Shown in pieces: positions 3,631 to 37,720 of a stretch of 37,720 bases of DNA (positions are counted from its first letter, which is position 1; each line of letters starts with the position of its first letter). The translations under genes and the position numbers were made by a program. The notes under the pieces were generated by a model. It was not told the DNA's origin. It made no database searches and saw only the letters and a list, made by a program, of their open reading frames with translations. The DNA lies in NCBI GenBank assembly GCA_902796355.1, contig CADBOU010000124.1, positions 1 through 37,720 of the forward strand. Reading direction: 5' to 3'. This stretch comes from an uncultured Lachnospiraceae bacterium. GTDB lineage: Bacteria > Bacillota > Clostridia > Lachnospirales > Lachnospiraceae.

Positions 3631-6195
3631 ATGAGTAAACGCACCAGAAGGAAAAAAGTGAATAAAAAACCCTGGGTGATTGCGTTAATCATCTTAGCAG
3701 CTTTAGCTGTTTTCTGTGAGCTGAGCCTGTTTGGACTTTGCGGTTCGCTGGGAGGAATCATTCATAACGCGCTGATCGGTACATTCGGTCTGCTCGGATG
3801 GATTTTCCCTGTCCTGCTGTGGATCTGGGTCTATTATATGATCACGCAGCTGGTACTGCGGAAGATGCGGGCCAGCGCTCTCATGAAAGCGGTTGTAGCC
3901 TTTTTTCTCTTTTGGGTTTTGTGTGCTCTGATTCATCATTTTGTGATTCCGTATGACAAGCAGGCGTCTTTTTCTGATGACTATGCACAATGTGTGAGCC
4001 GCGGTAATGGCGGCGGCACTTTTGGCGCATTAATTGTGCGTTTTCTGCGTCCGGCTCTCGGTGCCGTCGGTCTGGCTTTTGTCTTGATTGTCATCGGACT
4101 GCTTTTGTCTGAGCTTTTAACTGACGGGTTGATCATCAGATCCGTGCGCCAGATTATCCTGAAAGACAGCTCTCCGGAGAGGGCAGCAAAGAAAGAGGAG
4201 AAAAAAGCAAAAAAGGAAAAGAGGAAAGAAAAAGCTGATCAAAAACAGGATGATTTGGCTGAAGGACCTCCTGTAGAAAGGCCGCAGTATGAATCCGATC
4301 CGCGATATTTTGACATCAAAGATACAAAGAGTACAGATGTCACCGATCACCATGAAGATATTCACATTCATGATTCTCTGTTCACCACACTGGATGAACC
4401 CAACGCTCCAGTGAGCAGACAGAAATCAAAAGCAGGCGGTACTTCTGTAGGACGATCTCCTGATATTGTTGAATTATCAGATACAGATAGTTCTGGACAG
4501 GCTGAGATTTCTGAAGATTCTCTCTATCAAACGGTTGGTGATGCGCGGGGTAAAGACAGCCATCAGCCTGAAGTGAAAAAGAAGACAGCCCGTAAGCAGG
4601 TCAAAACAAAGAACGCTGACGCATCCGGCAATGAAGGATCTGCAAAAGCAACAAAAACAGAAGAAATGATTCTCTCTGGCGATTCAACTGCTTTGGACAG
4701 TGATTATGTGTTTCCGCCATATTCACTTTTGTCACGCGGTTCCCGCTCTTCAGGTGACTCACGCAGTTATCTTCGCGAGACGGCTCAAAAGCTTGAGGAT
4801 ACATTACAAAGTTTTGGGGTTAATGTCACTGTCACTGACGTCAGCTGCGGGCCTGCGGTCACCAGATATGAGCTGCAGCCGGAAGCAGGAGTTAAAGTCA
4901 GCCGCATCGTTTCGCTCGAGAGTGATATAAAGTTAAATCTTGCTGCTTCAGATATCCGTATTGAGGCGCCGATTCCCGGAAAAGCAGCTGTCGGTATCGA
5001 AGTACCCAACAAGACAAACATGACGGTGATGCTGCGCGATTTGTTGGAAGATGAGGCTTTTAAGAACCAAAAATCCAGGATCGCTTTTGCTGCCGGCCGT
5101 GATATTGCCGGTATGCCGGTGATCGCGGACATTCAAAAGATGCCGCATGTGTTGATAGCTGGTGCAACCGGATCCGGTAAGTCAGTCTGTATTAACACCA
5201 TCATCATGAGTCTTTTGTACCGGGCCAAACCTGATGAGGTTAAGATGATCATGATCGATCCCAAGGTAGTGGAGTTATCGGTCTATAATAACATTCCTCA
5301 TTTGCTGATCCCTGTTGTTACAGATCCCAAAAAAGCGGCAGGTGCACTGAATTGGGCTGTTGCGGAGATGGGCCGCCGCTACCGTCTGTTTGCCGAATTC
5401 GGAGCGCGTAAGATAGAAGAGTACAATACGCGTCTGAAGCGCGAATTAAAGAAGAAGCCTCAAGATGAAGAGGATACGCTTCGCCCGCTTCCTCAGATCG
5501 TCATAATTGTTGACGAACTTGCTGATTTGATGATGGTTTCATCAAAAGAAGTTGAAGATGCGATTGTCAGATTAACGCAGCTAGCACGGGCCGCCGGTAT
5601 TCATCTGGTGATCGCGACACAGAGGCCTTCTGTGAATGTCATTACCGGACTGATCAAGGCTAATATGCCTTCGCGCATCGCCTTTGCAGTCACCAGCGGT
5701 GTAGATTCAAGAACGATCCTTGATATGAATGGTGCGGAAAAACTGCTGGGAAAAGGCGATATGCTCTTTTTCCCGTCAGGATATCCTAAACCTGTCCGTG
5801 TACAGGGAGCATTTGTCTCTGATGATGAAGTCAGCAAAGTGGTTGACTATGTCATTAAACACAATCAGGAGACCGGTTATGATGAATCAACAATTGAACA
5901 GGTGAGTGCTGCTTCTTCGACCATTGGCGGATCACAGACGATCTCCGGACAGGAGTCGCAGGAAGACGATCGCGACGAATATTTTGTCGAGGCCGGTAAG
6001 TTCATCATTGAAAAAGAGAAAGCTTCCATCGGTATGCTGCAGCGTCGGTTTAAAATCGGTTTTAACCGTGCGGCACGCATCATGGATCAGCTGTGTGAAG
6101 CAGGTGTTGTCGGAGAAGAGGAAGGGACAAAACCGCGCCGCGTTCTCATGACATCTGCTGATGAGTTTGAACAAAGTTTATTACAGGACGATTAA
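3631..6195 (+). CDS. ftsK: DNA translocase FtsK/SpoIIIE
   Basis: An 854-residue hexameric ATPase that pumps double-stranded DNA through the division (or sporulation) septum. About four membrane helices lie in residues 10-180. A long charged, low-complexity linker runs to about 370, followed by the alpha/beta motor: Walker A GATGSGKS at 511-518 and Walker B IVIIVDE with D628/E629. A C-terminal gamma winged helix (about 781-842, containing [20 protein letters not shown]) normally reads polar DNA sequences that set translocation direction. FtsK also activates Xer recombination in several bacteria, which is relevant to the XerS-like gene at 36.3 kb. FtsK and SpoIIIE roles cannot be separated by sequence alone. 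Confidence 0.95.
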
Positions 6196-36271: not shown

Positions 36272-36307
36272 AAGACCGGACAGCAGAAGACTTCCGGTCT
36301 TATTGTT
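36272..36307. terminator. Hairpin between convergent genes, probable (bidirectional) terminator
   Basis: AAGACCGGA (36272-36280) pairs perfectly with TCCGGTCTT (36293-36301) across a 12-nt loop. T-rich sequence (TTATTGTTTATT, from 36300) follows on the + strand. It sits between the convergent cytidylate-kinase-like gene and the recombinase gene and could stop transcription from both sides, although the A-tract on the recombinase side is short. Confidence 0.7.
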
Positions 36308-37377
36308 TATTCATTCTCTCGTAACTGAACAACTCCGGCTGCCTGACGGCGTCTGTTCTCGTCTATTGCAGCATAGTGCTTCCTGGTCGTGTTAACATCT
36401 TTATGGCCCAGCACATCAGCGACCAGGTAAATATCACCTGTTTCTTTATACAGCGACGTACCGTAGGTACTGCGCAGTTTATGCGGCGTAATATGCTTGT
36501 TCGGCGTTACCTGAACAGCATATTTTTTGATCATGTTTTCTATTGCCTGTACACCGATTCTTTTTCGCTGCAGCGAGTAAAACAGAGCATTTTCATGCCC
36601 TTTTAAAGGCTCAATTTTCTTGCGGTCACCTTCAATGTAATCAATCAGGGCTTTTTCAACTTCCTGGCCGAAGTACACGATCATTTCGTTTCCGCCTTTT
36701 CTGACGACTTTAACGCTGTTATTCTTAAAATCGACATCGCCCAGATCAAGACCGACACATTCTGAGACACGCAGTCCGGTGCCCAGAAGCAATGTGCAAA
36801 TAGCCAGATCCCGTTGTTTGGTTTTTTTGTAATAAGCTAATGCCTGCCCTTTAAGAGAATCTCCGCCTTTTTCAATTAAATCAAGAAGGGATGCGACTTC
36901 ATCAGGTTCCAGTCGTATAATTGCCTTTTCATGCAGCTTAGGCATCTCTACAAGCACAGTAGGGTTAGTCTTGATCATTTGCTTTTTAAAATAATAGGCG
37001 TAAAAGCTTCGGAGCGATGACATCTTTCGCGCAAGGCCTTTTTCCGTGTTTGTCACGATACGTCCGTTTTCTTCCTGACGGTATACTTTCAGATACTCCA
37101 TATATTCTTCAAGATCCAGCGCTGTAACACGGTCCAGATCGTCCACTGTGAAATCCTGTATAGAGCGCCCGCTGTAAGAAGGATTCTCACTTAAAAGGAA
37201 ATGAAAGAAGACACGGATATCATATGCATAAGAGATACGTGTTTTTGATGACGTATGCGGTTCGATAGAACGAAAATAGTCTTTAGCAAACGGAGGAAGA
37301 GTCTTGAGCATATCACGCAGCCGAAGCGTGTGATCAATATAAAGCTTTTGATGGTAGGTCTGTTGATCCCGGTTCAT
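36307..37377 (-). CDS. xerS: XerS-like tyrosine recombinase
   Basis: A 356-residue tyrosine site-specific recombinase. The N-terminal SAM-like core-binding domain spans about residues 30-160 and the catalytic domain about 170-350. Catalytic residues are all present: R203 (GTGLRVSE), K227 (VVRKGGNE), H299 and R302 (TPHKLRST), H325 (VLGHKDVN) and nucleophile Y335 (KHYAAI). XerC/XerD are about 300 residues. The length and the stretch YKKTKQRDLAICTLLLGTGLR resemble the streptococcal XerS single-recombinase family (recalled, not searched). The ATG at 37377 has AAGGGG upstream; a longer frame to 37428 lacks this. XerS resolves chromosome dimers at a dif-type site with FtsK. An integrase role is less likely because no prophage genes flank it. 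Confidence 0.8.
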   Translation of the reverse strand: MNRDQQTYHQKLYIDHTLRLRDMLKTLPPFAKDYFRSIEPHTSSKTRISYAYDIRVFFHFLLSENPSYSGRSIQDFTVDDLDRVTALDLEEYMEYLKVYRQEENGRIVTNTEKGLARKMSSLRSFYAYYFKKQMIKTNPTVLVEMPKLHEKAIIRLEPDEVASLLDLIEKGGDSLKGQALAYYKKTKQRDLAICTLLLGTGLRVSECVGLDLGDVDFKNNSVKVVRKGGNEMIVYFGQEVEKALIDYIEGDRKKIEPLKGHENALFYSLQRKRIGVQAIENMIKKYAVQVTPNKHITPHKLRSTYGTSLYKETGDIYLVADVLGHKDVNTTRKHYAAIDENRRRQAAGVVQLRENE

Positions 37378-37410
37378 AAAAATACCCCTTATTATGAAAA
37401 AACAAAATAT

Positions 37411-37449
37411 AGCGCCCCAGGCAGGCATATCATACCATATCAGGGCGCT
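37411..37449 (-). terminator. Hairpin after rsfS, probable terminator for the minus-strand unit
   Basis: Arms AGCGCCC (37411-37417) and GGGCGCT (37443-37449) pair perfectly around a 25-nt loop. Read on the minus strand, a T-rich tract (ATATTTTGTTTTTT) follows, as expected for termination of transcription from rsfS. On the + strand five T follow the other arm. The long loop weakens the prediction. It overlaps the candidate xerS promoter. Confidence 0.55.
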
Positions 37450-37458
37450 TTTTGTCTA
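37429..37458 (-). promoter_or_regulatory. Candidate promoter of the xerS-like gene
   Basis: On the minus strand TAGACA (37458-37453) is followed after 18 bp by TATGAT (37434-37429) with an upstream TGG, giving an extended -10. The predicted transcript would start near 37422, about 45 nt before the ATG, and would carry the AAGGGG ribosome binding site. The elements lie within the hairpin described for rsfS termination, so termination and initiation may be interleaved. Confidence 0.4.
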
Positions 37459-37481
37459 TATCTATTTGCAAAATCTGTATT

Positions 37482-37509
37482 TGTCGTATAGATTGATCTC
37501 TATCCGAAA
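37482..37509. other. Imperfect inverted repeat with 11-6-11 layout, candidate Xer (dif-type) recombination site
   Basis: Left arm TGTCGTATAGA (37482-37492), spacer TTGATC (37493-37498), right arm TCTATCCGAAA (37499-37509). The reverse complement of the right arm matches the left arm at 9 of 11 positions, with the five inner bases ATAGA identical; one more outer base also matches. Arm and spacer lengths equal those of dif sites bound by XerC/XerD-type recombinases. It lies about 105 bp upstream of the xerS-like start, between that gene and rsfS. Further TCTAT motifs occur at 37455-37465. It could instead be an operator or chance. Confidence 0.45.
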
Positions 37510-37571: not shown

Positions 37572-37720
37572 TCAGGCGTCCAATTCAAGAGGATTGATCT
37601 GTTTTGCATCCTTCCAGATTCTTGCAAGATCATAGAATGTCCGGTTGCTTGCATCAAACAGATGAATCACAATATCCCTGCAGTCAATCAAGACCCAGCC
37701 GCTCTTGCCTTTTCCTTCAA
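37572..37720 (-). CDS. rsfS: Ribosome silencing factor RsfS, C-terminal part
   Basis: The last 48 codons of a minus-strand gene that continues beyond the window; the frame is open from the window edge to TGA at 37572-37574. The translated segment contains GKSGWVLIDCRDIVIHLFD and FYDLARIWKDA, matching the C-terminal half of RsfS/RsfA (DUF143), which binds uL14 and blocks joining of ribosomal subunits in starvation. The following 120 nt before the hairpin contain no gene. The first codon inside the window is incomplete. Confidence 0.88.
   Translation of the reverse strand, partial: EGKGKSGWVLIDCRDIVIHLFDASNRTFYDLARIWKDAKQINPLELDA

Follow-up and report, generated by a model that had tools for sequence, protein, structure and literature searches.

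The window analysed here, a stretch of 37,720 nucleotides from an uncultured Lachnospiraceae bacterium (contig CADBOU010000124.1), contains a 34-bp element at positions 37460-37493 that very probably serves as chromosomal dif to a Xer system with a single recombinase, conserved across Lachnospirales. An initial annotation had suggested that an undescribed dif stands beside a XerS-like single recombinase in a clostridial lineage, and this suggestion is well supported, with the 34-bp element as the site. Members of Lachnospirales rank among the dominant bacteria of gut and rumen, and a 34-bp dif with one recombinase opens chromosome segregation, the mapping of termini and Xer-dependent integration of phages to testing in this order. 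The features of the window discussed below are the following.

3631..6195, plus strand: FtsK translocase with alpha, motor and gamma domains (PF01580, PF17854, PF09397)
36307..37377, minus strand: XerS-like tyrosine recombinase of 356 aa, candidate single-recombinase Xer (Pfam PF00589 and PF02899; NCBIfam XerS as best model; tree)
37424..37459, minus strand: candidate promoter of the recombinase gene next to the site (-35 TAGACA, which begins 1 bp past the site, and -10 TATGAT, separated by an 18-bp spacer)
37460..37493, minus strand: dif-like site of 34 bp, intergenic (conservation, uniqueness, covarying arms, skew position in relatives)
37482..37509, no strand: 11-6-11 inverted repeat of the initial annotation, TGTCGTATAGA-TTGATC-TCTATCCGAAA, arms matching at 9/11
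37572..37720, minus strand: 3' end of a putative rsfS, which continues beyond the contig and neighbours the site on its upstream side (sequence reading)

A XerS-like recombinase in Lachnospirales

Started at the ATG at 37377, which has an AAGGGG ribosome site, the recombinase counts 356 aa; an alternative upstream ATG would give 373 aa. The protein contains a Phage_integrase domain (PF00589) and an N-terminal SAM-like domain (PF02899), and there is no question about its fold. Its catalytic set is complete: R (GLRVSE), K (KGG), H-R (HKLR), H (GHKD) and Y (KHYAA) all align with the corresponding residues of XerD and XerA. The open reading frame, the Pfam domains and the alignment thus agree with the minus-strand recombinase of 356 residues and full R-K-H-R-H-Y set that had been described from the sequence.

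The resemblance to XerS, also mentioned in that description, holds as relatedness and not as family membership. The best curated model for the protein is XerS (NCBIfam NF003462), but its score of 202.4 bits lies below the cut-off of 267, whereas XerS-type proteins of the phylum reach 382-557 bits on this model. The recombinase shares about 29% identity with the XerS-type proteins, and has the length and residues of a XerS (~356 aa, R-K-H-R-H-Y). We built a tree from XerS-type proteins, E. coli XerC/XerD and XerD-like proteins of Lachnospirales, in which branches are long and from which XerH, XerA and any streptococcal sequence were left out. The Lachnospirales proteins formed a clade (100/97) whose sister group consisted of five XerS-type proteins (100/95), and the two groups were joined at 100/99, apart from XerC/XerD. 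Judged by both cut-off and tree, the window recombinase appears to be XerS-related, yet outside the XerS family. A XerS-like gene was found in 59 of 61 Lachnospirales relatives; it is near-universal in this order and vertically inherited. One relative, G006, carries two XerS-like genes at most 5 kb apart (C2:103222-104241 and C2:107058-108095), whose products are 51% and 58% identical to the window protein.

A conserved 34-bp site upstream of the recombinase gene

The DNA upstream of recombinase orthologues was compared at about 110 Lachnospirales loci, and a conserved block, ATCTATACGACAAATACCGATTTTTCCAAAAGAT, was observed. The window version of this block lies at 37460-37493 and reads, on the minus strand, ATCTATACGACAAA (arm)-TACAGA (6-bp centre)-TTTTGCAAATAGAT (arm), a 14-6-14 layout with arms that are symmetric at 10/14 positions and a G+C content of 26%. 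Over 76 non-redundant Lachnospirales loci, the 34 site columns hold a mean of 1.81 bits and the 40 columns upstream 0.23, the conservation being confined to the 34 columns. Remoter relatives carry other arms that still match each other (AACTATTCG...CGAATAGTT; ATCATGTCG...CGACATGAT), indicating that the two arms change together. Six of the 14 arm pairs are altered on both sides versus 2.9 in shuffles, the covariation score is 0.135 versus 0.057 in shuffles, and the variants have in common the grammar CG-NN-AAA-N6-TTT-NN-CG.

The repeat that had first been noticed upstream of the gene, at 37482-37509, does exist with its 11-bp arms, 9/11 of them matching, and 6-bp spacer. It does not stand out, however: the window contains eight 11-6-11 repeats with at least 9/11 matches, versus 6.3 expected from shuffled sequence, and symmetry alone therefore carries no weight. 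The dyad symmetry of the 34-bp site is not clearly above chance either, and thus the case for this site rests on conservation. The 34-bp element is displaced by about 22 bp from the 28-bp repeat, and the two overlap only at the left arm of the element, with 37482-37493 as the common stretch. Across relatives, the left arm and spacer of the 28-bp repeat hold 0.38 bits per column, versus 1.81 for the 34-bp element.

Copy number, distribution and linkage of the site

Searches with a sequence model built from the 34-bp site gave one match in the window's genome (E 2.2e-8; next match E 8.9), and the search for further copies proposed for the initial repeat thus finds the 34-bp site to be single. 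Matches at E<=0.01 were obtained in 38 of 61 Lachnospirales genomes, mostly at one place each, and ten further genomes, reached through named loci, contain one strong match apiece. The same model search detected the site in none of 148 other genomes sampled across the phylum (0/148). About one third of the relatives lack the site by this model; in some of them, the arms have diverged. The distance to the xer gene is at most 10 kb in about 26 of the 38 genomes with the site, while in other families the site lies kilobases from the gene, downstream of it or on a different contig. The element thus has the attributes of a dif: one copy per chromosome, an intergenic position, low G+C and a dyad around about 6 bp.

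Additional copies were observed in a few genomes. G053 carries two extra full sites 260 bp apart on a small contig, C221 (L320:745-778 and 1005-1038), and G048 has an extra full site on C2 (L318:4802-4835) in a respiratory-complex neighbourhood, where the skew does not flip. In G016, two decayed copies lie upstream of the recombinase (L181:10615, 10709; L180:11641) and an intact site is found on another contig, an arrangement that looks like a moved or element-split dif.

The GC skew changes sign at the site

In three chromosomes, those of Claveliimonas bilis, Schaedlerella arabinosiphila and G057, the sign of the GC skew changes at the site; in the last two, this change was placed at the site within a resolution of 2.5 kb. 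In the complete C. bilis chromosome (3,042,110 bp), dnaA is at 1,442,558 and its antipode at 2,963,613, and the site was located at 2,954,314. The last skew sign change falls at the site, although the skew is negative already over some 20 kb ahead of it, a stretch that looks inserted. On the 6.35-Mb contig of Schaedlerella, the site lies at 1,826,620, about 31 kb from the antipode, with a skew of +0.099 over the 13.6 kb before and -0.109 over the 13.3 kb after. The skew of G057 is +0.082 and -0.112 on the two sides, although the site lies 378 kb off the geometric midpoint.

Drafts in which the site and xer are unlinked or far apart (G048, G045, G046, G054, G053, G034 and G055) also show converging genes and a skew flip at the site. 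In G048, for instance, 52 kb separate the site from xer, and the skew goes from +0.256 to -0.193. Since the skew flips at the site where site and gene are far apart or unlinked, the terminus signal tracks the site and not the xer gene. Two draft sites do not coincide with a skew flip, the one on C2 of G048 and one in G036, beside a prophage. Among relatives, three long chromosomes and several drafts thus have the site at a skew switch or terminus, and it offers a replication-terminus landmark for draft genomes.

In the window itself, all main genes are on the plus strand up to the recombinase, and the skew stays at about +0.08 for 35 kb before turning negative in the last 1.5 kb. The proposed relation between dif and GC skew is borne out for the 34-bp site, at which the flip occurs in relatives. 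A candidate FtsK-guiding motif, GAGAAGGG, was rejected: it points to the site in 14 of 14 cases in C. bilis, but purine-rich octamers are generally 86% skewed, and it is unremarkable in G057.

Filamentous prophages at the site

G036 harbours a 7.6-kb inovirus-like prophage between two direct copies of the site (C14:95714-103331; L332:6715-13001 and L338:1-1832). This element encodes a Zot-domain assembly ATPase (PF05707), and no integrase was found among the frames read. The two copies share 26 bp of flank, the left arm and the centre, GTCTAG, without a difference; divergence sets in beyond the centre. A second pair of sites, 6.2 kb apart in L237 (2365-8621), also parts just after the centre. 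These junctions show that recombination has taken place at the 34-bp site in relatives, with the crossover at the centre. Structurally, they match phages integrating by host Xer recombination, such as CTXphi and XacF1 (PMC5666396): here too, a small Zot-encoding phage, without an integrase among the frames read, sits at dif and is bordered by recombinant copies at both ends. They differ from CTXphi and XacF1 in their host order, Lachnospirales, and in a host recombinase that is XerS-like and not XerCD. Related filamentous elements occur in L234, L235 and L218, the first two adjoining the xer gene; in all, G036, L237, L218, L234 and L235 show filamentous prophages of Lachnospiraceae (Zot, Rep_trans) that have integrated at the dif site or are associated with it.

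Which protein acts at the site

We infer that the recombinase encoded next to the site, rather than another one, binds and cuts it. Alternatively, the element could be a true dif for a XerD-like or other recombinase, working either by itself or paired with the XerS-like protein in a heterodimer. A XerD-like protein of about 300 aa scores above ~310 bits in 25 of 61 Lachnospirales genomes (18 of them above the cut-off), so that a partner recombinase may operate in those lineages, and the limited symmetry of the window's site, only 10/14 positions, also speaks for this reading. We nevertheless consider this unlikely, for the XerD-like gene is patchy next to a XerS-like gene present in 59/61 relatives, and it is the latter gene to which the site is linked. 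Moreover, nearly complete genomes bear the site but no XerD-like gene (e.g. G010, G015, G025 and G057), and G050, rated 100% complete, has the XerS-like protein as sole candidate.

The proximity of the promoter raises another question, whether the element does no more than regulate the recombinase gene, as an operator or part of a promoter. Of 81 loci, 65 have a -35/-10 promoter beginning 1 bp past the site, 58 of these with an identical offset and 17-bp spacing. Yet the sites of other families, far from, downstream of or unlinked to the gene, mark the terminus there, and filamentous prophages with recombinant ends at the site largely refute a purely regulatory role, which is very improbable. 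Regulation may come in addition to recombination: because the promoter begins 1 bp after the site, the bound recombinase probably represses its own gene in the window's clade.

It is hardly credible that a standard XerC/XerD-dif system resolves dimers in these bacteria, with the XerS-like protein serving a mobile element as integrase or acting as an accessory. XerD-like proteins do occur in the order and the window's genome is an 86% complete draft, but one Xer-type gene and no second was found in it, and a search without positive control for the 23-mer of the canonical Firmicutes dif, with 3 mismatches allowed, gave no match there. The pair of Xer proteins and the canonical dif that define such a system were thus not seen in this draft. 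In relatives, matches to the canonical dif are about as rare as those to a reversed control pattern, and the vertical, near-universal XerS-like gene is unlike a mobile integrase or accessory. Finally, that the 28-bp repeat is the dif, as its 11-6-11 geometry and 9/11 symmetry had suggested, can be practically dismissed in view of its chance frequency and of a left arm that is not conserved beyond the genus.

Proposed mechanism and comparison with known systems

In the single-recombinase system that we favour, two subunits of the XerS-like protein would bind the two 14-bp inverted arms. When a chromosome dimer forms, its two sites would synapse at the septum, and strand exchange across the 6-bp centre, with cleavage at the borders of the centre, would resolve the dimer. 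FtsK, noted in the same window from the start and confirmed at 3631-6195 with its alpha, motor and gamma domains, is the expected activator of Xer recombination by analogy, and probably activates it here. Both catalysis by the recombinase and chromosome dimer resolution are likewise predicted from the Xer family.

XerS/difSL of streptococci and lactococci is the closest of the known systems: it also combines a single tyrosine recombinase of about 356 aa with a gene beside the site and a site at the terminus (PMC5357621), and XerS provides the closest profile and the sister group in the tree. However, difSL is a 31-bp site beside the gene with an 11-bp centre and unequal arms (PMC5357621), whereas the Lachnospirales site, linked in the window, has 34 bp, 14-bp arms and a 6-bp centre, and is unlinked in some families. 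XerH/difH of Campylobacter and Helicobacter similarly involves a single recombinase and inverted repeats around a hexanucleotide, usually gene-linked and at the skew switch (PMC2731167), but XerH, which is outside the tree, has a weaker sequence relation to the window recombinase (5jjv, E 5e-7). In Legionellales, the new dif of XerL was found through an element integrated at the site; this low-G+C palindrome near the terminus, served by a single recombinase, was supported by the same kinds of evidence (PMC9765430). Unlike the present recombinase, XerL is not linked to its site (>400 kb away) and its sequence does not reveal it as XerS/C/D, and XerL/dif is experimentally proven (PMC9765430) where the Lachnospirales system is known from sequence. 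By these analogies, the latter would work like XerS/difSL, XerH/difH and XerL/dif with its own site length and centre, and it joins XerS, XerH, XerL and XerA as one more branch of Xer systems with a single recombinase. In the open-access literature, we found no description of a Lachnospirales dimer-resolution system, and none treating XerS with Lachnospiraceae, combining inovirus, Lachnospiraceae and Xer, or giving the sequences of these sites.

Site copies in viral contigs

Among named phage records, the search for the site gave short matches only, the best being a Microviridae genome with an imperfect site. In IMG/VR, at least 120 viral contigs (loci L195-L274) each carry a single palindromic AACTATTCGNNAAA-N6-TTTNNCGAATAGTT whose 6-bp centre varies (for example L198:3037-3070 and L258:12841-12874). 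In 32 of the 80 viral loci read, the distance between the site and the large terminase gene is 250-2141 bp. Want of an integrase was rejected as the simple reason for its presence in tailed phages, as 16 of 40 records have their own tyrosine integrase. It is conceivable, if on balance doubtful, that Lachnospirales rely on an order-wide, vertical single-recombinase Xer lineage, sister to XerS and equipped with a 14-6-14 dif of its own, and that this lineage is exploited by dif-integrating filamentous phages as well as by many tailed phages with a dif copy beside their terminase genes, perhaps resolving their genomes with the host enzyme. A further viral contig, IMGVR_UViG_3300026549_000220, carries at L188:11793-11826 a ATCTATACG-type site, a GGAAAA variant in which the dyad is intact.
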